Source: Branchiostoma floridae (taxonomy: Eukaryota; Chordata; Leptocardii; Amphioxiformes; Branchiostomatidae). From it: a DNA stretch of 64,000 bases. Below the pieces are notes generated by a model. That model made no database searches. It was not told where the DNA came from and was given only the letters and a program-made list of their open reading frames with translations. Position 1 is the stretch's first letter. Each line of letters opens with the position of its first letter. A program made the position numbers and the translations under genes. Below are positions 32,736 to 58,365 of the stretch, one piece after another. The DNA lies in the NCBI RefSeq assembly GCF_000003815.2, contig NC_049993.1, forward strand, positions 9,445,458 through 9,509,457, read 5' to 3'.

Positions 32736-35700
32736 CTACTGCAGGTCCTTAAAGTTTGCATAGAGAGTGAAACTGTCCAGGTACTCCAGTACTGCCTGGT
32801 AGATGAACTGGTACTGTTCCTATGGAGAGAAAAACAACAACCATTTACAAAATGTATACAACCCTTTCGTAATGATATTGCTGTGGCTATGATTTTTATA
32901 CATGCAATTGTAGCTTAAGATATGGTGTAGCTGAGGCCTAAACTGTATCATTTATTCATTCAGGGAAACCTACTGTGGAAAAGCATCCTCCACTTGTCAA
33001 TGTGTAACGTTTAAACTTTTATGTACTCATGTTAATCTTTGTCTTTCTTTTGAACTACAGTGGAGTCTTCAAAACCATTCTAAAATGACATATACAACAT
33101 TAAGAACATTGTTTCAACATCTACCTTTAAAGTCTCATTCTCATTACCCGTTTTCAGCTAGAGGTTGACACATGTCAGGAAATGATTGGAGGAGTCTGAA
33201 TAGAAATGATGGGTACTTTACCACTGTTTGCACCATGTGAGGTCTCTGATATCTCATGGACTTCACAGTTTGGAAAACATCACAGATGCCCTCTGCCTTC
33301 ACCCGCTCAATCACTGTGCTCAGGGTTATGAACGCCCCTGTGCGGCCTGCACCAGAACTGCAGGGAAGACATGTATCACATCATCAATATGACATGACAC
33401 ACATTTTCCATTCAACATTAGAATGATACTTTACAGCATATATTGTTTTGCTATGGTAAAATACTTGCCCCAATTGTTTCAAAATAGTAATAATTTTTTT
33501 AATAACTACAAGGGGTGGACACTGATTAGCCTGTCATGAAACAAATGTATGACATATCAATACATTTAGTAGTATCACCATAGGTACACCCTTTAAACAA
33601 TGCATAATGTATGTGGCAGGCCCATCACTGCATGAAATTTTACATTGTACAGTATATGTATATGCAGAACCTATAAATCATACATGTCAAAGAATAACAA
33701 GCTAGATCTGTGACTGGTACATGTTGCACAATGTACAAATGTAAGTCAATGAAATGAGACACTTACCTGAACTGTGATTGGTTAATAAGACTGATGACAC
33801 ATACCTGCAGTGCACCGTGATTGGTCCATTTCCGGACTGCTGTTGCTGCCTCTCCACCTGACCAATCAGGTCCAGCATGCCGGCAGCATTGGCAGGGATG
33901 CCGATCTCCGGCCAGCCGTGGAAGTGGAACTGCTGAATGGTACGACAGGACGCCTTCTGTTGGGAAAAGGTAGAAAGGAAAATATTAAGTTTCCTCAAGA
34001 TAAACCAATTGGCTTTGGTCATGAATTATCAGTACTAGCATACATCCCTCTGTCTCTGGACAGCATCTTGCTACTAATGATAAATAAAAGATTAATCTAT
34101 TCCCTCACCTTGATGGACAAAAATCAACTTAAGCTTTGAGAGACTGTTGATGTTCTGATGAAAACATTAAGATATCACAACATTTGGAATCTGCACCAGG
34201 TCCTAAAGATTTTCTAATGATCATGAAAGTCTTTCTAACAGTAGTATTGTAGCTACAATAAGACTTGTATGTACCTTTTCCAGCAGTCCTTCTGTCTCCC
34301 CTTCAGCATGCTTCTGGAACTTGTGGGTCTTAAAGAAAAAAACAAATACTTTACGAATGACAGGCTTTGGACAGGGAATTTTTAAAAATAAAACAACAAT
34401 CCTACTTAGTTACAGACACAATCTTGAATACTCTGGATAAGCACAAACATAACAAAGAATATTTCGAACGTTCCCTTGTACCTTCACTAAACACACACAC
34501 TCACTATCTGGTTTATTGTCTTACCTTTGTGTTGGTAATGTGGAAGGTTCGGACGGTGTAGTCTTGGAAGGTTTTGTCTCCCTTAGCCTCCACACAGATG
34601 TCTCCATACATCTCTACTTCACCTGGGCAGTACTTTTGGCGCTTTTCCTGTAACAACAGGGGGAAATATAACACAGATGTCTCCATACATCTCTACTTCA
34701 CCTGGCCAGTAGTTATGGCACTTTTCCTGTAACAACAGGGGAAATATAACACAGATGTCTCCATATATCTCTACTTCACCTGGCCAATACTTGTGGCACT
34801 TTTCCTGTAACAACAGGGGAAAATATAACACAGATGTCTCCATACATCTCTACTTCACCTGGCCAATACTTATGGCACTTTTCCTGTAACAACATGGGGA
34901 GATATAACACAGATGTCTCTATACATCTCTACTTCACCTGGCCAATACTTGTGGCACTTTTCCTGTAACAACAGGGGAAAATATAACACACATGTCTCCA
35001 TACATCTCTACTTCACCTGGCCAATACTTGTGGCACTTTTCCTGTAACAACAGGGGGAAATATAACACACATGTCTCCATACATCTCTACTTCACCTGGC
35101 CAATACTTGTGGCACTTTTCCTGTAACAACAGGGGAAAATATAACACACATGTCTCCATACATCTCTACTTCACCTGGCCAATACTTGTGGCACTTTTCC
35201 TGTAACAACAGGGGGAAATATAACACAGATGTCTCCATATATCTCTACTTCACTTGGCCAATACTTGTGGCACTTTTCCTGTAACACCATGGAGGAATAA
35301 CAGAGGATATATGTTTTAAAATAAAAGATGTTTGTCAGAGAAGGCTGCATACCGAACTGAATTGCCATGTATGTAAGCTTCCTTGAAATATGAGACACTT
35401 AGTCAAAAACGTTGTATTTCATTCAAATGAACTTTAATTTACTCCTGGCTATACGGCATGAAAAAAGGCAATAAAAGCTTATAAGTAAACTATTAAAAGT
35501 CTTATGAATGTAATTCAACATAAAAACAATGGACAACAGAATTCTAACCCACACAATTTATGCATGTACATGTATACAATATTTATTTCATCACAGTACC
35601 ATAATGACGATCACTAAAGCCTTTGCATACATGTAAACGGACACTTTCAGAGAACTAAAAGTTGAAAAGGAGGTTATTTCTGTACTTACATGACCCCTCT

Positions 35701-38700
35701 CCTCCAGCTCTGTCAGCATGATGATAGAGCAGGACTTCCATTCCCAAACCATCTTCCAGAAGTCAGTCACTGTGTTGGGTAGGGGGCCTTGGGTGGCGAT
35801 ATAGGCATCCTTCTCTCTGTACCCCTGCAACAAGAGGCCAAACCAAGATTAAAGATTACGCTGTAAAGCAGCGGTCAAACCATTGAGTTGGGTTGTCCTG
35901 GAAACCTGACAGATTCGATGATCAATAATTTCATACGGATCTTCTTTCTTAAACTTCGGAGGTTTCTTCTATCTCCACTTTCAGTGTGGTTAGAAATATC
36001 AAGAGAAATAGCTTCAGGATTCAAGACTTGATGCGTATACCGGTATGGACAATTTCACAACACAGAGTGGACTTTCATTGTAAGATAGCTCCCATCCACA
36101 TACAAAATGCCCTTACATGACATTGTACTTCTGGTCATATTAAGAATGATACATGTAACATTTACTTACATCGACAAAGGCTGCATTGATGTAGTCTGAG
36201 TTCTTCATACCCACTGTGGGGGTGATGTACACTCTGGATGTGTCATCTGAAAGGGAAAAAAATTAACATTCCTAAGGGTCTTTCTGACAATATAAAGTAA
36301 TTCTATTGGATTTTAATCATACATCGTAATGAAGGCTAAGAATAGAGAGCGCATATTGGGAAAGTAAAACTCATGTGATATGTCATTTTTCTCAAGGCCT
36401 GCACATGTACATGTATCAGCAAACAGCATTTGGGACACTTTTCTCTGACTTAACCCCACTTGCAGTAGTTCATCAAATGAACTGCACTGAATAATGCCAT
36501 CCAGAGGTGTTTGATAATGTGCAAGAAAGTATACAAGAGAATGGAACACTCCAAAAATGACTGACATGTACAAAACTTACATGGCAGGATCTGCAGAACC
36601 CTGTTTTTCTTGATGTTGTCTGGAAGGTTGCCAGATCTCATGTTGTGTTTCTCTATGGGGATTTGGGTCAGTTTCTGGAACAAACAAACACTCAGAGATT
36701 ATACAATGAAAAAAATATACAGGTCTGAAGCAATAAACTTTAAACAACAAAATTACAAAAAATGTACATACATGAATGTAAGCATCATGCAGACAGAAGT
36801 TACATTTATCACCCTGATTTGGTTAATATCCTTGAATTCCACTTTTGCAGTTCTTTCAACAAGTTTTGTTTCAAAAGGCCAGAGTTTATCAAAAAAAGTC
36901 TTGAAAGAAAACTTGTATAGTCACCTATGCAGATCTTACACAAGATAACAGGTACTCAAGCAACTGCATAGATTTTGAAAACAGTCAAACATTTCAGGCA
37001 CATGTAGCATCCAAACATCTGTCCATGTCCAAAATCCACATCAAGGTTGTCTCCAGGATCCATCCATCCGTCCTGGGATGGAAATTTGCTTGTTGGGACG
37101 AACAAAAATTCACACCATCTGTCCCCAACATCTGAACTTCAGTACATAACATTGATGAAATTGTGTTTTCATATGCTTAAAATGACAGATTTAACAAGGA
37201 AAATTAACAACAGAGGCTCCCAAACAATGAGAGAGAGATGAAGGTTAGACATCCAAGTAATCAGATATGCCAGAATCATATCCAGTTGCTTAAATAATTG
37301 CTATTTGGCGTGTAATGAGAGGGACCAAAAAAAAAATCAAAGCTGGAGACAGCCCTGGTCAAAATCTCTCATTTGCCTTACCTTGAACTCTGCCTCCATG
37401 CCCGTGTCCTGTGAGTTCGGCAGCCTGGCTGCCAGTTGCTGTAGATGTCTGCGGAGGTTCGTCACCTCGATCTCTGTATCACCGTACAGGAAATGTTCCA
37501 GTAGAGCTTGGTAGATAAACACATACTGGCCCTGGAACATAAAAACAAGGAACAACAGGGTCACATAAGGGACATGTGTGAGACACCTCGATCTCTGTAT
37601 CACCGTACAGGAAATGTTCCAGCAGTGCTTGGTAGATAAACACATACTGGCCCTGGAACATACCAAACAACACAACAGGGTCACATAAGGGACATGTGTG
37701 AGACACCTCGATCTCTGTATCACCGTACAGGAAATGTTCCAGTAGAGCTTGGTAGATAAACACATACTGGCCCTGGAACATAAAAACAAGGAACAACAGG
37801 GTCACATGAGGGACATGTGTGAGACACCTCGATCTCTGTATCATCGTACAGGAAATGTTCCAGTAGAGCTTGGTAGATAAACACATACTGGCCCTGGAAC
37901 ATAGCAAACAGCACAACAGGGTCACATAAGGGACATGTGTGAGACACCTCGATCTCTGTATCACCGTACAGGAAATGTTCCAGCAGTGCTTGGTAGATAA
38001 ACACATACTGGCCCTGGAACATACCAAACAACACAACAGGGTCACATAAGGGACATGTGTGAGACACCTCGATCTCTGTATCACCGTACAGGAAATGTTC
38101 CAGTAGAGCTTGGTAGATAAACACATACTGGCCCTGGAACATAAAAACAAGGAACAACAGGGTCACATGAGGGACATGTGTGAGACACCTCGATCTCTGT
38201 ATCACCGTACAGGAAATGTTCCAGTAGAGCTTGGTAGATAAACACATACTGGCCCTGGAACATAGCAAACAGCACAACAATGTCACATGATGTCATTTAC
38301 ATATCAAGACTGTACAAAACTGTACAAAATCTTACAGCTATTGTTCAGGTCTTACACTGCTTAATCACTCAATCTTCTCCAGAAAAAAAATCTTACAGTG
38401 TGATGACTTTCCAGTAGAGAGTTTACAACTGTGTATAAAGAGTCAGAGATGAACAATGATGGTAGAAACTTACCTCCGTCTGGACCATCATGCACCTGCT
38501 CTGTCGGATCTGTCCGACAAACCCAAACACGTCCACCCGCTGTTCCGCCGCGATCATATCAAACATGGCGTCAATCACGATGAACGTTCCTGTCCGTCCC
38601 ACACCCGCACTGCAGTGATGTTAAACATGCAATCAGTTTGGCGATACATGACTGTACTTGTTCAACTTCAATTGGATTATCCTACTATTAACTCTATGTA

Positions 38701-39333
38701 GGATTCAGTACATAATACAATATTATCATATAGCCAGGCGCCGCGGACCAATCAGAAGGCCCCGTTCCACGTTGGTTATGACGCCGTAACACGTAGATTC
38801 AGGCCAGGCAGGTGGGTATTGCTCCCCTGATTGGTCAGAATGAATCGACACCGGCACCGGTGTCGATTTGCATCGACACCGGCACCAGTCAGCAGAAAGG
38901 AATGCTTTGTACAGTGTGCAGTCCATGTTAGAGTTAATCCAAACATTATTACTGTTCACATTCCTTCAAATTTATTGAATATGTACAACTATAACTTAGG
39001 ATTGAATAGCAACACACTTGTCCCAGCAGAAGGGAATTTGTCATTATGTCATAAACCACCTCGTTCGCTACGCTCACTCGGTGGTTTATTCGGTGGTTAT
39101 CGCACCTGACCAGGGATTATCTCACCATATACACCTCGGGCCGGGGCATTAACCCTTTATTATATATCAGCCATACTGTGTATAAAAGACACAATGGGAC
39201 AATAATAAAGCAAAAAGCTTCGTCTCAGGACCAAAAGATTATATTGGCATAGTCCTGTGCATACACACGCTACCCAAAACATAACCTTCTCGGCGAAGGT
39301 AAGAATATTTGAAAAGACACACAATGACACACA

Positions 39334-39364
<31 letters not shown>

Positions 39365-42300
39365 CTGCAGTGCACCACTATAGGTCCTGAGTCGGCAGGG
39401 TTGGCTGCCTTCACCCTCCTCACAAACTTCATCATTCCCAGCGGACTCTTGGGCACCCCGAAGTCTGGCCAGGTGGTGAAGTGGAAGTGGAGAAGGGTAC
39501 GGGACTCCTCACCCTGCAAGCAGTACAAAAGAGTTATTAGTATTGTAACAGACTGTTGGAATCGACTAAACATCAACTCTCATAATGCTAACAGCTTCCA
39601 TAAAATTGCCACATGAAAAACTTTCTTATAGTTATAGAGGCCTTCCAAAGGTTGTCTATAACACCTAAATATTCGAGGTGTATAATTAGAAACTGTACTA
39701 ACCGATGCTGCATTGGTACATCTTTTTAAATGACTTTAAATTCATGTAGTTTTTGTCATGTGATGGTATTATGGCATTATGAGCGTCGATGTTACAACTG
39801 TCTATCAAAACTAGTAGCAGCTTGGCACACAGTTGTGCTTAAATTTCTACCAAGGGGTTGTTAAAGGTGGGCTGGGCCATTGGAATGTCTTAGTGACTTT
39901 CCACAAGATGGTATTAGCTGAGCAACTGTACAGCAAGTCAGTAACCAAATATTGAGTCGTTTAACCCTTCTTTTCATAATTGAAATAGGATGCAAGGTTT
40001 AAACGTTTGATTTCAAGGGCAACAAAACACATAAAACGTTAAAGAATCTGTGAAATTTGTTGCGTAATCTCTCAAATCTTTGCTCGCCAACCACTGGAGG
40101 AAAGGGAGTGTTTGGCAGAATTATGGATGTCTAGACTAATAAGAAGAATCTAAATGCCAATGCACAGTCATAGGAGACACTTAAATGTACATTTTTGTAT
40201 TAATGATAAGAGAGTTGTTTTTTTTATTCTCCTGTCAATTTGACAGATGAGGAGGCAGACAGGCATTTGCTTGTTTGCCTGACCTGCACATGACTTTTTA
40301 TGGTGAAGGAGGGGTGTGCAAGTCCTTTTCCACCCTCTCGTCTATTGGAGCACTAAGTCTCACAGGGGCAACTGTATGCAACGTGTGAGGTGGCTCCAGC
40401 AGATGCAGCTTTGTTGTTCGGAGTATCCGTCTCCTAGGAGGACTTCCGAACAAGGATGTAAGGGGTTCCTCCTACCCCCGACTCGTGTCATGGCGGGTGC
40501 ATCATGCCCGAACATGCCCATAAGGCCTGTCTCTGCCACAAAGGCCTGCCACTGCCACTAATAATTAGAGAGTACTGAATAATATTACTACAAGGTACTG
40601 AAGCATGGACATTGGACTGCTTTCCTTCTACAATGTGTCATAAAACTATGACAGCAGACAGAAAAGTGTGGAGAACAATGGTGGCCCGCCTCAGCGAAGA
40701 CTGATATGCCATGAGGATGAGTGAGTGAGTGAGTGAGAAAACTATGACAAAGAACCTACATGTACCTTCCAAAGAGTAAGAGTCCTGATGACGTAATCCA
40801 CTAGTGTGGAAGTCTCCTCACTCCGTACTGTGATGTCACCGTACTGCTGGGACCCTGTGTCTGGCCAGTACTGGCTGCACTTCACCTGAGAACAGATAGG
40901 GGGAGATACCTCATCAGTATCTGCATATTATATCAATAAAGAAAACAAGGACGTACAATGTTTACTACACAGCCTTACATCAATTTTTTTTTCAAATCTT
41001 AAATCTGTTAACAGAGTATGAAATACAGGAAGTCTGTTTTGAAGTTCATCACTTGGATGTCAGATCAGATATCTTATTAGTTATATCCCTTGCCAGAGGT
41101 AGATGCAAAAAAAGGCTACGGTCAGTCATGTAACCGAACATACTACTGGAAATACAGAAATGTTCGCTGTGGTTTTATGTTCACGGTTGTCGTGGTGACC
41201 ACTTCACCGCAAAATTGAAACCACCGCGCATATTTTTCCATTATATTATGAGACTGAAGTCAATGGCGCTACTACAAACTTAAATCCACTACGAACACTG
41301 CATTTTCCCACTTCCGCAACAGTTAATCCCCGCGAACTTGAATGCATTTACAGTACTTTTTTTCCTAAGCCGCAGTACATTTTGTTTTGATGAGAAGAAA
41401 ATTCATCAGGTACTATCCCCACCTTGTTCTTCTCCTTGACATTGGTTACCATGACGATAGTTGCAGTGTTCTGCTCCCAAACCATCCTCCAGAAGTCACT
41501 CAGAGTTTCCTCCTTGGGTCCTGGGGAAACAAACATGGCTTTACACGTAGACTTCAATGTTTTTTAACTTTTAAGTGATAAAAATCTGGTTCATTTGGCG
41601 AGACTATTATATTCCTAGCAACTGTCCTTTGGTCCTCATCCTGTATCTTTAGCACAGGAGCCATGTCCTGAAAAAAAAACGATTTTGTTGCACCTATTTT
41701 ACAGAAAGGGTTTGATCTAATTTTTGTGGTAGAGGAGCCTTTGCTCCATCACCTAGCATGATTTTTATGCTTAAATTGTGTTACACATGTATATCACTTT
41801 TTTGCGAAACATAAAGTTAGAATACTTATAATATAATTCTGCACAGGTGGAAAAATGCAGTTTTAACATTTCTAAGCCTCTTTTGGGACTTGGCACTGCT
41901 TTATTTTGTACAATCAATGAGGTTAAAATTAACCTCCTTGGTATAATTTTACAGACCACTGAAATTTTCCATCACATTCTATTCTGCCCACCTTGCGCTG
42001 CGATGAACTTCTTGCTGTGCTTGTAGCCATCCACGTAGTTAGCGTTGATGTAGTCAGAACATGCCACTCCAGGGATGGAGGTCAGATGCACACGGGAGTG
42101 GTCATCTGAGACATGGAAACAAAAGAACTGACGGTCAAGCACCAATTTGAGAGTAATCGGTTCCTAGCTTCACAACCAAAGTAGTGAAAGCTACAGCTGT
42201 AGTTAGATTAAAGAAAATGTCCAAAATCATTTTTCAAACTGAGTTAGATATTTTTTAGTACTTTTACATGCATAGAATAAAAATAACATAATGATTGTTT

Positions 42301-45300
42301 TTATATTCCTCTTATTGCAATCCTTAACCTAACATGTACACTATAGATCATTCTCATGATTGTTTAAGGTAGCAGGTAGCTCTTGTTGCTATGTTGTTGT
42401 TTTTTTGCTAGCTTTTGCTAAATACTTTTTTATTCAGTGAAGAAGTGAGTTTTGCTGCTCCTTACAATGATGATGTTGGGTAAGGATTTGGGTTAGGGTA
42501 AGAGTTAAGGTTAGCTCTAGTCATGCTACAATTGGCCAAGATTTTTAGGTGGCAGGTAGTTTTGTCATACTATAAAGAAGTGAGCCTTACACATGATGAT
42601 GTTGGGTAAGGGTTAGGGTAAGAGTTAGGGTTTGCTCTAGTCGTGCTATACCATGATTTTTATGTGGCAGAGAGATTTTCTTATCTGTATACTGTAAAGA
42701 AGTGGGTTTCGTGCTCCTTACACATGATGATGTTGGGTAAGGGTTAGGGTAAGAGTTAGGGTTTGCTCTAGTTGTGCTATACCATGATTTTTATGTGGCA
42801 GACAAATTTTCTTATATGTATACTGAAAAGAAGTGGGTTTTGCTGCTCCTTACACATGATGATGTTGGGTAAGGGTTAGGGTAAGAGTTCATCATCATCA
42901 TGAAGAGTTAGGGTTTGCTCTAGTCGTGCTATACCATGATTTTTATGTGGCAGAGAGATTTATACTGTAAAGAAGTGGGTTTCGTGCTCCTTACACATGA
43001 TGATGTTGACGAATCTGTTCTTCTTGCTGTTCTCTGGTAGGAGGAAGGCCTCGTATGAGGCGGAGGGTTCCTGTGGCAGGGCGTCGTACTCCTCACGGAA
43101 CAGCTGGTCATCGTTGGCATGGCGACGGTTGAACTCCTTCTCCAGTCTCTCCATGGGGATGGGAGGGTAGTACGCTGGGGGGAGGGGGGCATGTCAGGGT
43201 GGCTCAACAATCAGAAAATATCACCAGTAATATACAAAAAGTGATAGCAATGTACAAAGAATTCTTTTGACATGAAATGCATACCCTACAATATTATAAC
43301 TTTTACTGTACAGTTTGCTAAGATCACAAAGACAACAGAAAATGACTATTATAGAGATAAAAATTGCCTTTCATCCAGAAAGAATAGCATTACTTTTGAC
43401 ATATATTTGACCTTCCCTTTTCCTCCCTTTTGACTCTATTTTCATGTTGATACTTCAGTTTAGGATTGTTCATCAAAATCTCAGAATCAATAAATTAGCT
43501 TCTTACACAAGAGACACACGGAGATGCAGTTTGGCCTACCGGGGAAAAGTTTAATGCTTTGTTCACTTTTCCGGATACACAGGCAGAAACGAGATCAACA
43601 ACAGAGTAGATAATAAGAAAAACACAGTTACACTCAGATATATAGAAAGTGCGATGTGGAGCACATAAACGACTCTGGTTACATCATTTGATTTGAGAAT
43701 AAGTGTAAGAAGCTAAAACTACGCAAAAATATAAGAAATGTGGCTAAAACTAATGATTAACCTACAAATCTAACTTAATTATCAAAATGGTGGTGAGGAG
43801 GGTGGTGGTGGGTTGAGAGAACGACAGAGCGGACTACCGAAGAGTGCTGCCCGCGGTCTCGTCCTGAGCGGGAATGAGCGTGGGGGACGCCAGGCCTGTA
43901 CCATGTGCTCGCCTGGCACCCCGGGGAGGGACGGAGCTTGTAGCCAGGCCAATTAACAAAAATGACCCGTAGACATTTTTCCACAATTAGATTGCTGTGG
44001 GCTAAGGGAAAATCATAATGTGTTGCAAGAACTTGCCCGACTGTTTCTAGCGTGTCGCCTGACAGTTGAAGCCTTCAAAGATGCCCACGTTCGGGTCCTA
44101 TCACGCATTTTATAGCGTTTGGACCCCACTTCGAGGCTGGAACCACTGGGAGTGTTTTCAAATTACAGTAACGATCAAAAAACTTACGACTAGTGCACAT
44201 GCGCCACGAGGAATCGTGGGTAACTGGTGACCTTTGAAAATGGAGGCTACTTGGGGGTGGTCAGATCAGTAGTCTGACTGACAACCCAGAGGGTGCAGGA
44301 GGCAATCATATTGGGTTTCTAGTAGTTCCTTACCAGCACCCCTATGGAGAGGCATCTCCTCGTCCCTCCCACCGCTCTTCCTGAAGGAGTTTCTGAGGCC
44401 ACTCCGCTTCTTGGACCTCCTGACATGAGGCAGGCCGTTGCCTGCTGCCTTGTTGTTCAGCCTCCTCCTACAACAGAGATGGTGAAGAAACATTATCATC
44501 TGCATCAATATGCTTTAGATTTGCCAAAAAGCAGTTACTCAAGCAACTGGATATGATTTTGGAAGAATATAGGCCCATCCAAGTGTAAGGGGGAGATCAA
44601 GCCTTACTCAGTTACTGTCCAGTCTTATGCTTTTTGTTCCAAAATCATATCCATATTTTTTGAGTAACTGCTTTTTGGCATATCTTATTACCTGGATGTC
44701 TACCGTCAATGCTTCAGATTGTCTTTTGTTCATTTTGCATAAACAGTCACCTTATGTTGTAACACACCAGTTTTAGAATGTCAGAACAAGAAGCATAAGA
44801 CTGGACTGAAATGTTTAATCTTCTCACACTTGGATGGGCCTCTACTCTATTTGGGAAGCGTGCTTTTATACCTGCTTCAGGCACCTCCTGCGTTACATTT
44901 TCTTTCCAATTTCTACAAATAGGCATATAATTTGGTGTGCTGAACATTGACAGGTAGGTACTTATTTTCATCCATCCATCCATCTAAATCTCACCTGATG
45001 AGGATGATGAGGACAGTGAGGATGATGAGGACCACCACAGCCGAGCAGAGGATGATGAGGATCAGCATCCAGTTGGTACCAGGCAAAGGGGCGGTCATGA
45101 TGGGCAGGGAGTAACTACTACTGCTGTACAGGGGCTGGGGAAGAAGGGGAAAATTGTTAATTGTGTAGTGTCTTTGACATCAATCAGAGGCAAGGGAAAC
45201 ATCATCATAGACTGCTGTTGTAAATGTAATCCTACGTAAACATAATCTGGTACTTGACAACAGGAGGAAAAAGCCTAAAGTATGCAGAGGTTGTGAGTTA

Positions 45301-48300
45301 AGTTTGTCTCAAACTTTGATGTTTCTAACTTTTCATTCTCAATCTGTTCTATCTTACCATGGCCCCATCCTGAGGTTGACTGCCGTAAGCCCTGTGTATG
45401 ATGGTGTATCTTGTGCCAGGTTTGAGGGGAGAGTTGGTGTACACGCCCTCATAGATGTCATCTACAGACAGGTCACGCTTCCTTCTGCCGGCACCGACAC
45501 TTCCACCGCAAGACGTCTTCCTCCCATCACCCAGGAAAATGTCTTCCTCAAAGTCTTCCCTGTAAAGCAAGTAAACCTTAATACAAGGAACCTACAATCC
45601 AAACTGATGAAATGAAGCTACAAAAATGCATTTTATAGAGCTCTTGAGGATATCATCTATCTGTGTAAACATTAACTTTCATTACATACAACTACTGGAT
45701 AAAGCAGCAGAGTAAACACTCTAAAGGATGAGGCAATTCAAATAGCAACCACTTTCTTCAGTAACAAACTCAATGAAAGTTAATGAAAGTTAGTAAAGGT
45801 AAATTAAAAGTAATATAATAGTCATACCCTGATTTTCAAAACAAAAATCCAATCTCACCTTCGGAAAGCCAGGGCCACATAGGCAGTCAGATTGTTGCCT
45901 GATGTAGCTTCCTGTTGAGACACCACCTTGAGCTGGTCTGCAGGTGGAAGTGTCTGTAGTGACATTTCCTCTGTCATCTCCAGCACAAGCACCTGCTGAC
46001 ACCTGGGCAGAAAGGATTGTGAATCAATCAATGCATAAATAAATAGATGAATGAATGTGTATTGATGAATGAACATATGTGAATGACTGAATGTGTGAAT
46101 TTATAAGTGAACAAATTAATAAATGGAACATAAAATTCAATAAACAGACAAATTATATTTTCTTACACTTACCTGGACCAGGTACATGATAGGTATAATG
46201 GTAGGTACATGTATAGTGGTAGGTAAATATTGAAGCATTCTTGTTACTTGCAGCTATTCTATGGATAGAATAGATGGTTCTGAGTCTGTGTGTGACTTGC
46301 ATTTTCTTCATGCATGTGAGTGTACAAGCACACAACATTCTGAGCCTGGGAGATGACAAAAAACTCTCAAATTGGATGGAGAAATTCCCTTGAATTCTGC
46401 TGATAGCACAAGTCTTTCCCATGTAGTACTTACTCCACAGGTCCTGTCCTCTCCGACACCTGAGAGAGGGTGATGGGATAGCCGTCATGTTTGATGACCT
46501 CAGCCACCTGCGGCATCGCTGGAGGGGCGGGCATTCTGGGCTCTGTGGGGGGACATAGATACACACTATGAGATTTGCTTGTACTATGCAGCGTTTACAA
46601 TAAACCCCTTGGGAAATACACAAAGAACGACTGTTGTGTAGTTCAGTGGTAAGCAGCCCTGCGGTAAGTGTTTGATTCCGCCTGTTTTGCTCAAAGGATA
46701 TGTATGCTACCGGAAAGGGTTCCAGTCCTTAGAACGGGACATAAAGCCATGGTCCACTGTTCATTATGTTTGTCAAAAAGAGCTAGCGGAATATCCCAAT
46801 GAACCTGTAAAAACTGCACATTGCATCTGTCTTTTCTGTCATGACCAGTAAAAGAACAACTCTAACTTCATTCAGTGAGCTTAACTTGATCGTTATCACT
46901 TTCACTTTCAATTTCATCCCACAGAGGTGACATGCTTGCTGCTCATGTTACTTGTTATAATGAACCTGCAGGAAAACTTGGACTGCAGATGCCAAAAGAA
47001 GAGTTGGTCACCCATACACTGATACAACCCAAGAATTAATACCTAGCCAGCATCTAATAGCTGTAGTGCAAAGTAGGACCAGTCTGTACATTGAAACCTG
47101 GACTTGGCAACAACTTTAGAAAATTGGTTATTGAGGACACAGTAGACTAACAGTAACTGTTAGTCTGTTACATGTACTATGTGAAAATGGACGAGCATTT
47201 TAGTATGGCTTGTGACTGGAGTCTGGAGGTGGTCATTTGCACCAGGTGCCAACCAGGTTTGTTTGTATTGTCCTGAGGAAGATTACAGACGGTCAACAAA
47301 GTCTCAGCAGGGTATCAACTCTTTATTTTAGATCTATTGACCAGAATAAATTTAAATTAGTACTTACTCCCAGGCGGAACCTCACACATATTGGTGCTGG
47401 GTGTGTAGTTGCTGAACTCCCCCATCCCAGCATAGGTGGATGCCGTCATGTTGAACCTGTACCTGGAGTTTGGAGTCAGGTACTTCATGGGGAACGTTCC
47501 CATTCTCACAAACGGGTTGAAATGGTCCTGGCTGTACTCCACGGCTTGGGCGCCAGGGGGCGCATCTATCCAAATGGCAGTCAGGTGCACCTGTGATACA
47601 TGTAGGAGAAAAATGGCATAGATGAATGATAAATTCATAAAAGTTATGTTGTATATATTAAGATTTTTTAAAGACTAAAACTAACTTAATTCAGCCAGTT
47701 TTACAGCATGGTATAACAGGCTGCAACGTTGTTGTATGTATATGTGTATGTTTGTGTTTATTTGTTTGAATAAACCATTGACTGATAAATCTAAAACATT
47801 AACAAAATCCTGCAGTATCAAAATTGATCAATACATGTATGATTATGTTATTATTTTGTATTATTGTCACAAATGACCCTATAGAGTATATGCTGAGTAT
47901 ACTACAACCACAGTAAGTATCCAAAGAGCTGTATGCCACTCTTTTGATCTTGTTGGCATCCATCTGTCTCAGAAGACAATGGTAAGCAGACCAGACAGTT
48001 ATTACTGGCCGTTTGCCTGGCCTGCACATGACTTTTTAAGGTGAAGGAGGGATGTGCACGTCCTTCTCCACCCTCTCGTCTACTGGCACACTAAGTCTCA
48101 CAGGGAAAAAAAATTGCATGACACTTGTAAGATGGCCCCAGCAATTTGAAACCACAGTCAATCGACTCAAAATCCCTAAATACCCAGTATTTGAATATGA
48201 CGGATAAAGGGTACCCCACAGATAAAGGTGAACTAGCGTTTAGATGTTTGTAAGGGATGTACTGACGGTGTATTTGATGATGGTGCCATTTGGAGTCTCT

Positions 48301-51300
48301 GGTGTTTCCCAATGTAGCACACATGCCATATGACTGGTGGAGAGATGCACTCCTCTAGGAGCACTGGGTACTGGTGAACACAAGCAACAAAAATGTCAGG
48401 TGATTGAGATGCAATGGTACAAAATGATTCTTTGATTTGTAGAATTTCATAACATCTTCTATGAGATACTTATCATTCAAGCATTAGCATGGCTGATTGC
48501 TAGCCATATTAACACTATTGAAAGGAAAGATTTAGCTAGAAAGCAAAAACATGCATGTAACAGAATTGAAGTAAATGAAGATATTGTCAAAATCACTTTT
48601 TAGAAGTTCCCTTCTTGCACAATTTGGCTGATGCAATGGCCTAGGGGTGTTCCTTTTGCATGCAAAGGATGCAGGTTTAGGCTAAAGAATAAAAATAGTC
48701 GCTACAGAAGTGGAGATGGGCACTGCTCTACACACCAAAGGCTTGGGAAGGATTTTAATGAATCAACAAACATTTAACATATTCTATACTTACGTCCATC
48801 ACTGGTTGTGCTGTTGGCTCTACTTTCAAATCCCCTACACGGACCAAGGTTATATGGAACCACCTTAAAAACAAGCAAATGATGTGTTATGTATAACTAT
48901 AAGATACAAATTTGTACTTAAATTCATGATGCTAGTATAAGCAATGTGTTACACCAAAAGGTTACCTTTATACCAGCTATGTAGATACAGATGTGACCAA
49001 AATTAATTCAGCATGATTTACCCTCTGCATACTAGGGCTGGGTATCGGTACAGCGTACGGGTACAAAACCGTTTTTTCTTATTGGACAAGTCCAGAAAAA
49101 CCGGACCTGAAAAAATTGGGTGGACCGGATGTTGGACCGATTAGAAAATAAACAGATTATTTTATCAGCCATTCACGCATTTTGGCGCTTGCAGGTGGAA
49201 GAAAATAACAAGAGTGAAGTAGAGTAGAGTTTATAGTAATTTCTACCAAGTTTTACAGCCAATCGTACAGGAGGTGCAGTTAGCGCTGTACGATTTTAAA
49301 ATGCCAGTGTAAGTCTAATACTCCACCAGGCAGATTTCTTTGTAGTGAAATGTACCATTGGTATGAGTCATACTGAATCAGGTCCAGGTTCAGGTCCGGA
49401 CCTGGACCTGATCCTTTGGACCTGAACCGGACCTGGACCGGAATTTTCTGTACCGGTAACCACCCCTAGTGCATACCTGTAGATGCACACAAATTTGTAC
49501 TGGCTGCAACAGAAGCTGGATAAGGTTAAAAGAACACATCATATGATCATCACATGATGTTCACATGATCATCACATGATCTTAACATGTCTTGCTCATG
49601 ACATTGAGGTTCTTTTGAATTATCTTTGTTAGAGTTGATGCAATACTTACTCTGACAGTGTATTTTGTTGCTGGAACCAAACCCTGGTATCTCACTTGCA
49701 GGGTGTCACCAGAACCCAGACTGTTATCAGCCACCTTTATATAACCTCTAAATAGTTCCACTTCGTACTTGTACAACTCTCCATTCAGTGCTTCTGGCTC
49801 CACCCAGGTGGCAACAAGGATGGTTGAAGAGATGTTGGTAAGTTGCAGAGACCTGACTGGTGTAGGATCTGTAATAGATACATTATGATAAATGTCAGTG
49901 AAACATTGAACTGATAATGTACATGTTATTACAAAATAAAGAGATCCTAACTAGCAGTTTTTTTAAACTATTTCACATCATGTATTGTTTTACTTCAATT
50001 TGGCTCTTTAGTGAATTGGTTGCTTGACAATATGCATACATTATAGGCAACAGTAACAGGGGTGGACCCACTGGACAGAGCCGCATGGAAGCGCAGTGTA
50101 CTGCCTACCCGTGTCAGGGATCCAAGCAGCAGTATAATCAAATAATGAATACTACTAACTCTCAATAAACAAAAACAAATTTGCATGAAAAATGGATGAC
50201 AGACAGACAACAAACTCACATCCAGAATTTGTCCGTTTGGTGACCCATGGATGCCAGGCACCCACACCGTTGGTGACCAGAGCTCTCACTGAGACCTCAT
50301 ACGATGTGTAGGACTGCAGATCTTGCACCACATACGTGGTCCCAGTTGTGGCATTACTGATGACTTGTGGCAAGTCTCCTGTACCAGCGAGTCTGTAGCT
50401 GATGTCGTAGCCTGTAACTTCAGCTTGGTGTTGGGCAGGTGGATTCCAGCGCAGGGTCAACCGTCCTTTCCCACAGGAACCACTGGCAGTGAAAGCCTCG
50501 AGGTCACCTGGTACCAACATGGCTGGATCTGGAAGGAATTAGAAAACATCATGAAGTTTAACACTCTTTTATTTTGGTTAACACATTTTAAATCCATAGA
50601 CAGCATGATAAACATGTAGCTAAGACAATTACTTCAATCTACCATAATAAAACAGGTAATACAAGGGTAGTCAATTTACAATTATTATATCATAGAGCCA
50701 AAAGGTATCAACCAATCAGAAGGCACCATTACCCAGATCACTTATATGGCTACACACTCATTCCAAGGTTTCCATTGGTCCAATTTTTTTTGTCACCAAT
50801 AATGGGTTATACATTACCTATGTCACAGTGGGCACCGATGTTCCCATCACTACAGGTACACATGTAACCGTTCTGTCTGTCCACACAGGTTCCTCCTGTG
50901 CAGGGGTTCGACTGGCACTCATCTACATCTGTGAGGAGAGGACAACATGTTTTCTGAGATATCCTAACCTTTATCCTGTGTTATTTGTATTACCTTATGA
51001 CATTAGGCAGCAAGGGGATTATGGTAGCCTAATTAAGGTCCCAAATGCAATACTTGCATTCCTCCTCATCACAGTTCATGACCTGAGTTCATTTCCTGAT
51101 CCACATGGCTTGCTTTATCCAACAAGTGTATCTGTTGTCCTCTCTGTCTTCCACATTGACCCTGTTCTATTACACAGTTATTTCTTGCAACATGGTTTGT
51201 CACTGCTGATTTCTTTTAGTTTGTTTGTTTAGCTTGTTTCACATACAACTGTATATGTGACCAGTAAACTGCCTTAACACACCAATTTTGTACAGTAAGA

Positions 51301-54300: not shown

Positions 54301-57300
54301 AAAGCAATATTGAAAAGTAAGCAATGGAAGGTATTACTGTAATGGAGATAAAGGTATTGGGGAGGGCTTGATCATGCAGGGAAAGTAAAACTAAAAAAAG
54401 GAAAGTTTTACTTCACACAGTACCATCAACCTCATTTTTCCTGTGACTTCTAACTTCTAAGCAGTGCTGTGTAGTAGAAGCCCTGGAAGGATGTGGATAA
54501 AAGGAAAAGAAGGAAAGGAAAGAGAGAGATAAGAAAAAAAGGAAATGAATGAATAAGTATATGAGATGATGGATGAGAAAGCCATTAGATGAAAGATAGT
54601 AGAGTGAGAGAGAAAAATAAAGAGCACCATATTTGTAGAAATAATGCAACTCCATTTGTAACTGACCTAAAGAAGAAACCCAATCTATTACACTACTTTT
54701 CAATTCCAGACAGCACTTGAAAGAGTTACCTGTTTGACATAGTATACCCGTATACCCAGGGGCACAGCGGGGAGTGTTGTAGGGACAGTACCCAGAAATC
54801 TTGTTACAGACAGCACTGTTAGCACAGTGTCCACACTGTTGTCTGCAGCCATCACCATAATAACCATCACCACATGCTAGTACAGGTTACACAGCACAAC
54901 AGAAGGGGAACAGAAATAGGTAAGATTAATGAAGATTAAAGAATAGAAATTTAAAAAAAGAACACTTTCAAAATGCAAGATATTATTGGAAGGCACTTAG
55001 TAGAAGGTATCATCTTAATAAAGAGACGGCATAGACTCAGATCTAATTGAAGTGTTTGATCATACATGGAAAGTAAAACTGAAAAAAGTAAAAGAATTTA
55101 GATTTTGTTTCCCGCAGTGCCCACACTTTCATTTTCCTGAAAGATCTCTAGTGGGCAGTCAGAAGAGAGATATGAATGAATGCATGAATAAATGAATGGG
55201 TATGATGGTAGACAAATGAATGAATGACTAAATAAATGAAAGAGAAGGCAGAGGAAAATGAAAAGGGCCATACATTGTACTTGACAAAATACTGCAGCTC
55301 TTTTGCATCACATTAAGAGATTCAGTTCCATAAAAACATAACCCATCCCACGCACTACTTTTCACAGTAAAAAATCACTCCTGTACATAACACTATAAAC
55401 TGTTACCTCTTTGACATCGTATACCCATATACCCTGGGGCACAGCGGGGGCTGGAGTCAGGACAGTACCCATTGGTTTTGTCACAGAAATCACCGTTAGC
55501 ACACTGTCCACACTCTCTGCAGCTCGCACCATAGAAACCATCACCACATGCCTCTACAGTTTAACATGAAAAGAAGCAGTTAAACAAAATAAAACACCGA
55601 AATGATAGAAATCAGAGATAAGTACCTTAAGAAAAACATAACTTAAAGAATTCTTTGACCCAAAGAAACTGATAGAAAAGCACCTGTTAGATTGGTGAAG
55701 GACACAGAAAGACGTTTAAGTCTTGGTCTTCTTGCACATGCACTAATGAGGACACACATGTATACCTACACCAATCAAATGAAGTACATAATCATCTATG
55801 CAATTACCAATAGGCAGGGCTGGCTTGATCATCATGGTGCTCTTCTGGAGTGAGTAGTTTGATCCTCTCCATGAAGCCCAGATCAGTCCTTGTTTCTCAC
55901 ATGCTACGGGGTTGCTTGGATCCTCTTTGCAGTCGGTTAGATAGTAACCATTTAACGTGCCCTGGCCACATGACGTAGGATACCACCAACCGCCCCTTCC
56001 GTTGTAGTTTGCACAGCTAACAGTTGCATTGTCATTGTCCTGATCCTTTGTTGAGAACTTCATCCCATTGGAAGTAGTGAAACTGTCCCCAGTAGTCCCA
56101 GCATAGCCTCCTATCTGTAGAGTGTACTTACTGGTGGCATCACCGACCGCAAACTGGGAGTACTCTGCATGTGCAACTGTGTTTGTCCAGTCTTCTAATA
56201 TGACCACAAGTTTATACGCTTTCTGTGAAGTGAGTTGGTGGATCCTGTCCAGACCCAGCCAAAAGTCTTCAGTATATACAGAGCCAAATCCATTCACATA
56301 CTCGTACCATGTTTTGTCAAAAGCTGGGGTACCGCTTTGTCTCTTCTGTATAACAGTCCAGCCACCACCTCCATAGGTCATATCACAAAGAGCATTGAAG
56401 GCAGGGGTACCAATAGGGAAGACACCATCCTCTCTTTGGCCATTATCATATAGATCAGCACAGTCCTGGGCTAAGACCTGTCCGCCTGAAAGAAGAAAAG
56501 AAAACAAGATTAAAATATTTGTGACAGAAATCAAAGTCACTTCAATAAGAAACATATTTCAATTTTATATCTATATCCAATTTTTAACTACAAAATGTAT
56601 GGATGGATGGCATAAAAGAAAACATGTTAGAAAATAATGGAGTGGATCAATTCAATTCAATTCAGTTCAGTATCGTAGTACGAGGTGGGATAAAGAATGC
56701 CACTTCAGACTTCTCGGTCCAGCATCATTTGAAGTGGATCATTTGCTCAAAAAAGGAGATGAAATGGATAAAAGAAACCACAGATCTTTTGAAACAGTGA
56801 TAGGACATTTTCTACAAAAGGTCTGTTTTAAAGCTGATTACATATACAGTTGTATGTAAAACCCAGGGTATCATAAGTCAAGCTCTGAGCAGGGATACAC
56901 ATCAAAGCTTCCTATACTGAAATACAAATACAAATCCCAAACAGTCACGCTGCCCAAACCACAAGAATATAATATATCACTGCTTCTTTGACCTCCTCTT
57001 TGACAAACAATCAGAGCTTTCCCTATACATATCACATTTCCCCCTGCTCTTCCTGTTGTAACTTCCTTCCCTGTCAATACTATTATGTTTCCACTGTGCA
57101 TCATAGCTTATCTCCTATAACAGCAGCGGGGAATAGGGCAACACCAACTGGATTCTATAGTTCTTACCACTTTGAAAAGGCTGAAAAATTTCAGTTTATA
57201 GAGTAACGGAGGTACTGATCCAGCAATAAATTTTAGTAAAAAGAAAAAAAAACTACCATTCATGGAAGATGTGCTACATTATATATTCTTGTTTGTTTCC

Positions 57301-58365
57301 TTCTTTTGTAAGTAGTCAATAAACCATACAACCAAAAACCATAAGGCTGGATTCCAATTTTGTGTACAGTAAGTTCAAGCTCTGTTTACGTCTGGGGTGA
57401 TACCGGAGAGTTTCAAAGTCATGGCTTTTTGAATGTGCTTGAGAGGTATATTTTTTCTCAAACATCCAGATCTTGCTGTAACATAATGCGCTGTCTGAAG
57501 GACCCCTATCAATTCAGTAGCATGAAAGTTAGTCAGGAGCAAATTCCGACCTCGTAACTCAAAAGCATGATTACCACAAATTGAACCACAGCACGCTACA
57601 TATTGTATGTCATTGTATTTGTGATGGATGTTTGGAAATGATACGGCTAATTAGCAGCACCCAATCACTTGTTTCCGCCTCATTTCACTCTGAAATGCCA
57701 TCAAGAACATGTTCTAAATCCAGTCAAAAGGCTGTGTTTTGACATGAAGTATGGGAATATAACATCTAGATGTGCTAAATAGTACATGTATGCTAGAGTC
57801 TATCTATGCAGATGCATTGACAAAGTCAAGAGTAATCTAATAAATACCCACAACATGTTTTCCATATCAATAATGCAAAAGCTCAGTTGATGAGCTTCAT
57901 TAATTTTTCATACATATCTAATGTTAGACTATACACTTCTATAACATGAAAATTATGATCGTCATAGTTCACATATCATATGATAGCGTTGACTAATAGA
58001 CTTCCTCCATCATCTAAATAGTGGGGAGGGGGGCATATAGAGCCAGCTATTCTCTGAGTTCTACGTATACTTCGTATTATTACTTCGGGTAAAATGCATG
58101 GGACGTCAACCTAGGAAACAGAATGGTTCGGTTCACGCTACAAAATGTTTAAGAAATCGGGAAGTAGGTGAGTTTTTTTTCGTGCTGTAAACATTTGACG
58201 AAACGCAGACTGGCTGTCAAGAAACCAAAACATTTCTTAGCCACGCCTTTCACTTTCGTAGACAAAATCGGTCATTTCTGAGACAATCGTGGAGAAACTT
58301 GAAGACTTACCGGTCAAGAAGATGCCGAGGATGGCTAGAACCGTCGCTCCCGGCCAGGGAGCCAT
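32736..58365 (-). CDS. Receptor tyrosine phosphatase with fibrinogen-like, EGF and FN3 ectodomain; PTPRA/PTPRE-like cytoplasmic region
   Basis: 33 minus-strand coding exons, all phase-consistent, 5007 nt, 1668 aa: 58311-58365, 55808-56485, 55407-55553, 54730-54876, 54060-54209, 53513-53650, 51457-51582, 50818-50928, 50220-50528, 49651-49868, 48794-48863, 48267-48370, 47368-47590, 46434-46542, 45859-46002, 45358-45559, 44995-45134, 44334-44467, 42995-43174, 41992-42105, 41423-41520, 40766-40885, 39365-39513, 38474-38609, 37382-37531, 36581-36674, 36170-36246, 35690-35824, 34525-34647, 34275-34328, 33805-33956, 33222-33357, 32736-32819. Signal peptide 1-19; fibrinogen C-terminal domain 26-236 ([19 protein letters not shown], calcium loop DQDNDN); EGF-like modules 245-517; FN3 518-620, 621-716, 717-825; membrane-proximal region 826-977 with RRKR at 935-938; membrane helix 999-1023. 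Phosphatase D1: WPD with D1256, [10 protein letters not shown] with C1288. D2: WPE (E1562), [10 protein letters not shown] with C1595. Many D1/D2 stretches match PTPRA, e.g. [12 protein letters not shown] and [12 protein letters not shown]. Role inferred: ligand-sensing phosphatase, possibly Src-activating. Confidence 0.92.
34275..34328 (-). other. 54-bp in-frame microexon in phosphatase D2
   Basis: Phase 0-0 exon with acceptor TTTCTTTAAG and donor GAAAAG|GTACAT. It encodes 18 residues starting [10 protein letters not shown], between ITNTK and [15 protein letters not shown]-type D2 domains run almost directly from one flank to the other, so this is an insertion before the WPE loop. It could be skipped without a frameshift. 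Confidence 0.7.
34593..35290 (-). repeat. Tandem array A: about nine 78-bp copies of a D2 exon's acceptor and 5' half
   Basis: The unit holds the acceptor CTGTTGTTACAG and the first about 55 coding bases of the exon 34525-34647 ([18 protein letters not shown]). The core word TCTCTACTTCACCTGG recurs about nine times, counting the true exon. Copies 2-9 read [12 protein letters not shown]-like. The most common period, 78, is divisible by three, but some units carry one-base indels. Confidence 0.9.
36950..37300. repeat. Two dispersed repeat copies in opposite orientation
   Basis: 36950-37025 has ACTCAAGCAACTG, GATTTTGAAAACAGTC and GTAGCATCCA. 37240-37300 has GACATCCAAGTAATCAGATATGCC and, inverted, ATCATATCCAGTTGCTT. 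Same family as 21640-21745. The pair sits in the intron between the D1 and D2 phosphatase domains. Confidence 0.6.
37467..38285 (-). repeat. Tandem array B: seven 120-bp copies of the D1-end exon's acceptor and 5' half
   Basis: Each unit contains the acceptor TATGTTCCAG and the first about 65 coding bases of the exon 37382-37531 ([20 protein letters not shown]). CTCGATCTCTGTATCA recurs seven times, including the real exon. Copies are nearly identical, so the array is young. The only copy with the correct downstream coding sequence is the one at 37382-37531. Confidence 0.92.
38720..39180. repeat. Intronic inverted repeats (possible MITE)
   Basis: Contains ATAAACCACC at 39051-39060 and its complement at 39080-39089 around a short loop, and a hairpin of ATCGACACCGGCACC-type words near 38845-38885. 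These lie in the intron before the exon holding the D1 signature motif. Element limits are not clear. Confidence 0.45.
39327..39364 (-). repeat. (GT)n microsatellite starting at a splice donor
   Basis: On the minus strand the donor of the D1 catalytic exon reads TGCAG|GTGTGTGTG and continues as an alternating GT run for about 36 bases. The donor itself is the first GT of the repeat. Confidence 0.85.
40245..40415. repeat. Dispersed repeat, copy 1 of 2
   Basis: Shares CCTGCACATGACTTTTTA, GGTGAAGGAGG, TCCACCCTCTCGTCTA and CACTAAGTCTCACAGG with 47995-48140. Both copies are in introns of the receptor phosphatase gene in the same orientation. Identity unknown. Confidence 0.7.
42468..43010 (-). repeat. 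Tandem array C: five about 131-bp copies of an exon end and its donor
   Basis: The unit starts with the last bases of the exon 42995-43174 (AACATCATCATGT) and the donor GTAAGG, then intron sequence. ATGATGATGTTG recurs near 42468, 42596, 42727, 42858 and 42999 (the true exon). The unit also has TTAGGG words (GGGTTAGGGTAAGAGTTAGGG). Confidence 0.88.
44515..44855. repeat. Nested inverted repeats in an intron
   Basis: Outer pair: GCCAAAAAGCAGTTACTCAA near 44523 and its complement near 44670. A second pair: GGCCCATCCAAGTGT near 44572 and ACACTTGGATGGGCC near 44827, with AGTCTTATGCTT matched inversely by AAGCATAAGACT. A related single copy (AACACACCA ... CATAGGACTGAG) is at 51276-51355. Transposon-derived; boundaries approximate. 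Confidence 0.65.
46620..46690 (+). repeat. Possible tRNA-derived SINE fragment
   Basis: TAGTTCAGTGGTAAGC resembles a pol III A box and GTTTGATTCCG, about 30 bases on, a degenerate B box. There is no complete cloverleaf. Similar tRNA-like stretches are at 48628-48680 and 59365-59405. Tentative. Confidence 0.3.
47995..48140. repeat. Dispersed repeat, copy 2 of 2
   Basis: Second copy of the element at 40245-40415, with the same words and a following AGATGGCCCCAGCA where copy 1 has AGGTGGCTCCAGCA. Confidence 0.7.
48864..49650. other. Intron between the two exons of the second FN3, no further gene
   Basis: Contains a zone rich in GGTCC/GGACC words (49050-49450: CCGGACCTG, GGTCCAGGTTC and similar) that folds on itself, perhaps part of a repeat, and TCACATGATC repeats near 49540-49580. 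No exon seen. Confidence 0.4.
51276..51355. repeat. Dispersed repeat related to 44750-44855
   Basis: ACACACCAATTTTGTACAGTAAGAAC followed by GCATAGGACTGAG and AAGGTTTAATTCACTC aligns with the sequence at 44760-44830. Confidence 0.55.
51640..53545 (-). repeat. Tandem array D: copies of an EGF exon end and donor, split by a transposon
   Basis: The end of the exon 53513-53650 and its donor (read on plus as AACCTACCCTCCTGACAG) recurs near 53345 and, diverged, near 51702. Shared intron words are TTTCATCAGGTTTGTAGATC, ATCCAGGCTGT and CTGTTAAACAG. Four copies are recognised including the exon. The element at 51759-53237 sits inside one of them. Confidence 0.75.
51759..53237. mobile_element. 1.48-kb non-autonomous TIR element
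   Basis: The left end CTCTCATGTCCCTAATAAAC is matched by the inverted right end GTTTATTAGGGACATGAGAG. TA dinucleotides flank both sides (51757-51758 and 53238-53239). The subterminal zones repeat variants of AATAAACATACC / AATAAACGTACC with CCCGG-type spacers. The longest open frame inside (52441-52863, plus) shows no transposase features, so a nonautonomous DNA element is likely. Confidence 0.75.
54060..55553 (-). repeat. Three tandemly duplicated EGF exons with their introns
   Basis: Exons 55407-55553, 54730-54876 and 54060-54209 encode near-copies beginning ACGDG(Y/F)YG and containing HCAN or QCAN and a final CAPGY- or CTPGY-type turn. The introns between them also share words (GATCATGCAGGGAAAGTAAAAC against GATCATACATGGAAAGTAAAAC; TCATTTTTCCTG against TCATTTTCCTG), so the duplicated unit was exon plus intron. 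Confidence 0.75.
55808..56485 (-). other. Fibrinogen-like (FReD) exon of the receptor phosphatase
   Basis: A single 678-bp phase 1-1 exon carries the whole fibrinogen C-terminal domain: CADLYDNGQ start, [29 protein letters not shown], a DQDNDN-type calcium loop, [11 protein letters not shown] and the LNGYY segment. It joins the 55-bp signal-peptide exon at 58311-58365 and the EGF exon at 55407-55553 in phase. The one-exon, symmetric-phase form suggests it was captured as a module. Confidence 0.85.

Follow-up and report, generated by a model that had tools for sequence, protein, structure and literature searches.

A predicted fibrinogen-headed receptor tyrosine phosphatase in the lancelet Branchiostoma floridae, and the sharing of receptor heads along its chromosome

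Introduction

A stretch of 64,000 nucleotides from the lancelet Branchiostoma floridae (contig NC_049993.1, here C15, positions 9445458-9509457; "the window" throughout) carries on its minus strand a fibrinogen C-terminal domain (FReD) and, downstream, two PTP domains. The locus raises the question of whether these belong to a single receptor, and if so, of which class and with which relatives. On the evidence of its sequence, the gene is read here, with a probability of roughly 0.8, as one type I receptor tyrosine phosphatase with a FReD head, an EGF/FN3 stalk, a single transmembrane (TM) helix, and D1 and D2 domains of the PTPRA/PTPRE kind. Its family appears to have expanded on one chromosome, with phase-1 ectodomain modules common to SAM-tyrosine kinase receptors and, seemingly, to a short-tailed receptor. 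A FReD-bearing receptor phosphatase of such a kind appeared in none of the open-access titles and abstract openings listed.

Gene model and domain organisation

The gene was modelled by six-frame reading together with a small splice-aware finder that weighted codons with paralogue likeness, and the splice sites were then curated by hand. The initial automatic models, in which a strong homology bonus led to over-called exons (minisatellite copies and repeats included), were discarded in favour of the curated one. Genome searches covered the 513-Mb assembly of 431 contigs, and further stretches of C15 were taken from starting positions 10270001 (R103), 14745001 (R147), 9415458 (RUP), 10730001 (R107), 1915001 (R019), 8300001 (R083) and 1530001 (R015).

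The curated model comprises 32 exons on the minus strand, from an ATG at 58365 to a stop at 32736, and encodes a single frame of 1650 amino acids with no internal stops, GT/AG at all junctions, and phases that are consistent throughout; from the FReD through the first FN3, all exons both open and close in phase 1. The start exon (58365-58311) and stop of the initial annotation were both recovered, and its description of a continuous, phase-consistent gene was borne out, with the exon number corrected from 33 to 32. The only Ns in the window (24104-24203) lie outside the gene. The features of the model, all on the minus strand, are as follows.

58311..58365, minus strand: exon 1, start codon and signal peptide (55 nt, donor 4.9, phase 0 to 1; homology support 0)
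55808..56485, minus strand: single-exon FReD, phase 1-1 (Fibrinogen_C E 4.5e-59; genome match C15:9501278-9501928; donor at 55808 weak, -0.1)
55553-55407, 54876-54730, 54209-54060 and 53650-53513, minus strand: four MEGF/Tie-type EGF exons, phase 1-1, alike in R103
51582-51457 and 50928-50818, minus strand: two DVDEC-type EGF exons (Pfam EGF, 2 stretches)
50528-50220; 49868-49651 with 48863-48794; 48370-48267 with 47590-47368, minus strand: FN3 region (45358..50528 as a whole; Pfam fn3), split-exon pattern as in R103
46542-46434 with 46002-45859 and 45559-45358, minus strand: last exons of the FN3 region, with an RRKR motif at residue 935
44995..45134, minus strand: transmembrane exon, helix from residue 998 (acceptor 5.5, donor 4.9, hydrophobic; no homology match)
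44467-44334 and 43174-42995, minus strand: juxtamembrane exons, the second aligning with PTPRA, the first without homology support
42105-41992, 41520-41423, 40885-40766, 39513-39365 (WPDFG), 38609-38474 and 37531-37382, minus strand: PTP D1 exons (Pfam Y_phosphatase)
36674-36581, minus strand: exon linking D1 and D2 (window model)
36246-36170, 35824-35690, 34647-34525, 33956-33805 (WPEIG), 33357-33222 and 32819-32736 (stop), minus strand: PTP D2 exons (Pfam)

Pfam places along the protein, in order, Fibrinogen_C (residues 24-240), EGF, fn3 in three stretches, and two Y_phosphatase stretches (E 1.6e-164), with about 1000 residues N-terminal to the TM; no Ig domain was found by Pfam in the window protein. 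Model and Pfam together match the order first proposed from the letters alone, namely signal peptide, fibrinogen C, EGF, FN3, membrane helix and two PTP domains. The four MEGF-type EGF exons, which the Pfam EGF model misses, were called from paralogue likeness and cysteine pattern. The weakest exons are exon 1, the 70-nt exon 48863-48794 and 44467-44334, called mainly from splice signals and frame; of these, 48863-48794 was chosen for its resemblance to paralogue exons, and a 55-nt signal-peptide exon was likewise assigned at R083 by the identical finder. As the FReD frame stays open upstream as far as an in-frame Met codon at 56555, which a hydrophobic stretch accompanies, an alternative first exon is possible. 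The gene as a whole would be expressed as one transcript.

Furin-like basic motifs (RRRKR, RRRRQ, RRKR) lie just before the TM, in the last extracellular exons of R103 and R147 and in window exon 45559-45358.

Phosphatase domains and class

The HCx5R motif is intact in both D1 and D2; WPD is kept in D1, and D2 has WPE, a change that weakens the D2 of receptor phosphatases. D1 looks active and D2 looks regulatory. Taken alone, D1 scores 445 bits against PTPRA D1 and 389 against PTPRE D1, and D2 scores 377 and 336 bits against the respective D2 domains, with D1 and D2 combined reaching 844 bits for PTPRA, 746 for PTPRE, 631 for PTPRS and 453 for CD45. The D1/D2 phylogeny that the initial annotation had suggested as a check agrees: in a ten-row tree, six lancelet PTPs fall on the side of PTPRA and PTPRE at 100/100, with PTPRS and PTPRF as the only outgroup and other receptor phosphatase types compared by score ranking. 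From the Pfam and D1/D2 scores, a PTPRA/PTPRE-type phosphatase with a FReD head, as originally proposed, is still the best reading. An excerpt of PMC5336234 states that no R3 receptor phosphatase was found in amphioxus, and a figure legend in PMC11788884 refers to an amphioxus "PTPRA-like" architecture.

Within the tree, the branch that sets the six lancelet rows apart is supported at 76/90 only. The window PTP is closest to two neighbours at 9.42-9.44 Mb, which have no FReD among the matches listed, and the PTPs of R103, R107 and R147 form a separate group (100/100), R107 also having no FReD among the matches listed. Because the window PTP groups with neighbours without a listed FReD, and R107 with R103 and R147, the presence of a FReD does not track PTP phylogeny.

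At least 15 PTP loci, grouped by eye from 144 matches with 150 of 185 candidates scored, lie on C15, which amounts to a local expansion of receptor phosphatases.

One gene or two

A FReD at the front of tandem PTP domains could arise from the misreading of two same-strand neighbours, one encoding a secreted FReD-EGF protein and the other an FN3-PTP receptor, as a single gene. Several features of the head would suit such an error: its introns are long (58311 to 56485 and 53513 to 51582), FReDs are common in the assembly (at least 173 matches), and the frame stays open past the weak FReD donor to a stop 21 codons on, so that a retained intron would yield a secreted FReD. Errors of this sort have also been proposed in print: PMC4967905 argues that mistakes of gene prediction might explain the novel domain pairs of lancelet gene models.

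Evidence on the other side comes from loci elsewhere on C15, where the same order and strand recur. The R103 phosphatase (plus strand, about 10308.2-10327.6 kb) has, in a rough automatic model, Ig, EGFs, a PAN-like exon, FReD, EGFs, Ig, FN3s, TM and two PTP domains. The R147 phosphatase (minus strand, about 14753.2-14779.9 kb) has two FReDs, EGF, Ig, FN3s and two PTP domains in a similarly rough model, in which the TM exon is unrecognised and the first exon unsure. A LINE-like reverse transcriptase frame that the automatic model took as an R147 exon was rejected as false. The rough models of the R103 phosphatase, R019 and R083 are incomplete, with stops at some junctions. R083 packs two FReDs, EGF, Ig, a SAM-like domain and the start of a kinase into about 6.5 kb (one junction stop, no TM in the rough model), which also argues against two misread neighbours, as do the phases that fit along the entire window model.

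In all, 3 of the 15 PTP loci on C15 are preceded, no more than 30 kb 5' and on the same strand, by a FReD. The expectation is 0.08 such loci when the 173 listed FReD matches are counted (P 6e-5), and even if all 571 candidates were FReDs, it would be 0.25 (P 0.002); both figures assume independent loci, and overstate that independence in so far as the three FReD-PTP loci may be duplicates.

Exon structure can also be compared with the R103 phosphatase, with which 18 of the 32 window exons were paired (7 from the FN3 region and 11 PTP). Lengths are equal modulo 3 in all 18 pairs and exactly equal in 10. The FReD, EGF, first FN3, TM, juxtamembrane and last exons are unpaired, as are exons 43174-42995 and 42105-41992, each of which is divided at R103 by an additional intron.

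Given the same-strand FReDs in front of tandem PTPs at R103 and R147, mis-joining is improbable, and the separation into two genes that the initial annotation had named as its refutation is a reading to which we give very little weight. The window phosphatase with its FReD head is probably one gene.

The head and its stalk

The top PDB matches of the window FReD are FIBCD1 (6.5e-48) and angiopoietin-2 (1.9e-46), and tenascin-R is matched at 1.4e-43. The aligned motif is CHTSNLNG in FIBCD1, CGQGTLNG in the window and CGPSNLNG in angiopoietin-2. The histidine of the FIBCD1 motif lines its acetyl pocket; the window protein has a glycine at this position, and so lacks the acetyl-pocket histidine of FReD lectins. 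The head may be of lectin or of ligand type, as the initial annotation proposed. The MEGF/Tie-type EGFs match PDB 6u11 at 1.3e-9 and Tie2 at 2.5e-8.

Paired receptors at R103 and R147

At R103 the phosphatase faces, head-to-head, a gene for a SAM-tyrosine kinase receptor that lies upstream and runs in the opposite direction (C15:10277562-10327597 for the two). The kinase gene has a closely similar ectodomain, a TM-like frame, and Pfam matches to SAM (6.8e-8) and tyrosine kinase (1.8e-87). Eighteen ectodomain exons could be paired between the two arms, 17 of them equal in length, with 1023 of 1226 aligned residues identical (83%); over these exons dS is 0.28, dN 0.10 and dN/dS 0.35, with no stops. 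The DNA similarity stops at the last extracellular exon, just before the TM. Left unpaired, with positions counted within R103, are five EGF exons (39340-40523) and one Ig exon (47592-47960) on the phosphatase side and two EGF modules (15836-15432) on the kinase side, together with an upstream kinase exon (20320-20015) that has an 80% DNA match in the phosphatase arm. Two other kinase genes with a FReD are located at 1.92 Mb (R019) and 8.30 Mb (R083, where the model ends with the fetched piece). Amphioxus tyrosine kinases were reportedly the subject of D'Aniello 2008, and the kinase side may already be known from there.

The neighbour that the R147 phosphatase faces is a plus-strand gene whose head is likewise FReD-FReD-EGF-Ig-FN3 (C15:14787428-14797031), corresponding pieces of the two heads being 76-93% identical in DNA. 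Behind a hydrophobic stretch in the plus-strand gene comes an open tail frame that holds several tyrosines; YQALDPRTMCSTEYTSL among them looks ITAM-like by the spacing rule. About 8.6 kb after the TM frame gave no PTP match up to E 1 and no kinase match below E 1. Read from open frames with provisional splice sites, this receptor is apparently short-tailed, and the idea of a kinase partner for every FReD phosphatase was dropped on account of it.

For the window gene, unlike the R103 phosphatase, no neighbour with the same ectodomain was found. When the R103 kinase served as query, neither the window nor its flanks (30 kb before, 20 kb after) gave a match below E 1, and for this reason the gene is regarded as having no known partner.

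Shared heads and their history

Across C15, at least 11 FReD matches fall into eight loci, of which three belong to phosphatases, three to kinases and one to an apparently short-tailed gene, with one left unclassified. For the FReD gene at C15:1535637, 20 kb of sequence, 2522 N included, gave no match to a PTP or a kinase at E 1e-4. A tree of ten FReDs, in which R019 is represented by the first 171 residues of its rough model (profile positions 2-180 of 221), contains three clades (100/100, 99/98 and 100/100), each of which mixes phosphatase with kinase or short-tailed genes. The window FReD has a long branch to itself and reaches no more than 50% identity with any of the other nine. The FReDs thus group by head and not by cytoplasmic type, a pattern suggesting that heads and tails have different histories. 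The head would then be a cassette interchangeable between kinase, phosphatase and short tails, with the window gene as a diverged phosphatase arm.

How much function lies behind this sharing is a separate matter. A history of recent duplication or gene conversion alone, in which kinase and phosphatase do not work as a pair, would account for intron DNA that is partly alike (2.7 kb at 91% at R147, 1.26 kb at 80% at R103) and for the unequal contents of the R103 arms; it is compatible with the structure of the window gene, and its chances come close to even. It sits less easily with two R103 arms that are both open over the 18 paired exons at such a dN/dS, with a likeness that ends just before the TM, and with three clades that are each of mixed cytoplasmic type. 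The functional alternative is offered tentatively, with chances somewhat further below even: lancelets may have a matched-head system of divergently arranged gene pairs, in which a Tie-like FReD ectodomain is carried on a kinase, on a phosphatase or on a short tail with tyrosine motifs, and in which a single ligand would bring writer, eraser and substrate together. In such a system the window gene would be a diverged eraser, and receptors with their own angiopoietin-type domain may predate the vertebrate angiopoietin/Tie split.

Minisatellites and neighbouring frames

Two tandem arrays in the window, identified by TRF, are built from parts of the PTP exons.

37463..38288, no strand assigned: 120-bp tandem array, about 6.9 copies, 93% matches; 5' part of D1 exon 37531-37382, overlapping the exon
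34592..35286, no strand assigned: 79-bp tandem array, about 8.8 copies, 95% matches; 5' part of D2 exon 34647-34525, overlapping the exon

By pattern count, each array holds seven exon starts, every one behind the same acceptor, and these exon-derived minisatellites are a possible source of cryptic exons. The gene could on this account be intact in sequence and yet silent or decaying, its D1/D2 splicing disturbed by arrays that multiply both exon starts and acceptors; the long branch of its FReD would fit such a fate. Such silence or decay is nevertheless unlikely given 1650 codons free of stops and frame breaks, and HCx5R motifs kept in both domains, and an intact receptor phosphatase continues to be preferred.

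Near one end of the window, FN3-like and PAN-like frames on the minus strand (600-4861) probably represent the ectodomain of the adjoining minus-strand phosphatase (C15:9434-9440 kb). A 550-codon open frame on the plus strand (9521-11170), close to the phosphatase genes, resembles a TRIM protein in its B-box type cysteines.

A proposed mechanism

The window gene is predicted to have phosphatase activity and to bind a ligand. Its head would most likely bind that ligand or a neighbouring head, and the bound head would place D1 on nearby phosphotyrosine proteins. At R103, and perhaps at R147, one ligand could gather the phosphatase with a kinase or a tyrosine-tailed substrate, a mechanism proposed because the ectodomains are shared and, at R103, conserved; kinase and phosphatase would be expected to act there as antagonists. 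To our knowledge, it is unusual for receptor kinases to have an ectodomain in common with receptor phosphatases. Like ectodomains on either enzyme would provide a natural test of balanced tyrosine signalling, and hint at receptors matched so that one adds the signal which the other removes.

Comparison with known systems

The arrangement resembles the paired activating and inhibitory receptors of immunity, but with the enzymes built in. Among receptor phosphatases, PTPRA and PTPRE (type R4) are the nearest, being alike in their tandem PTP domains, best D1/D2 scores and tree placement. Their ectodomain is short, glycosylated and domain-free, whereas that of the window gene is long and carries FReD, EGF and FN3 modules.

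The FIBCD1 and ficolin lectins have the FReD in common with the window gene, FIBCD1 differing in the motif given above, and we know of no enzyme domain in either. Tenascins share the module set of EGF, FN3 and FReD, but are secreted, with the FReD at the C-terminus and with neither TM nor PTP.

The link to Tie2/TEK and the angiopoietins runs mainly through R103. The N-terminal Ig-EGF part of its phosphatase has Tie2 as best PDB match (4.1e-42, 147 bits; the next non-Tie entry reaches 45 bits), and the alignment runs co-linearly through one Ig and three EGF modules. The Ig-EGF x3 order of Tie receptors is thus present in the R103 phosphatase and absent from the window gene, which has no Ig, EGFs that approach Tie2 only at the E-value given above, and PTPs in place of a Tie-type kinase, although its FReD lies near angiopoietin-2. 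For the R103 kinase, the full domain has an EGFR-named entry first, followed by FGFRs across nearly the whole of the best 60, and the C-lobe has that EGFR-named entry first again, then Tie2 at 112.4 bits just above FGFR3 at 110.6. We know of no Tie with a SAM or PTP domain, and in vertebrates the Tie receptor and its FReD ligand are separate proteins. As the lancelet FReD sits within receptors that have a Tie-like part, the finding bears on the origin of the angiopoietin-Tie system.
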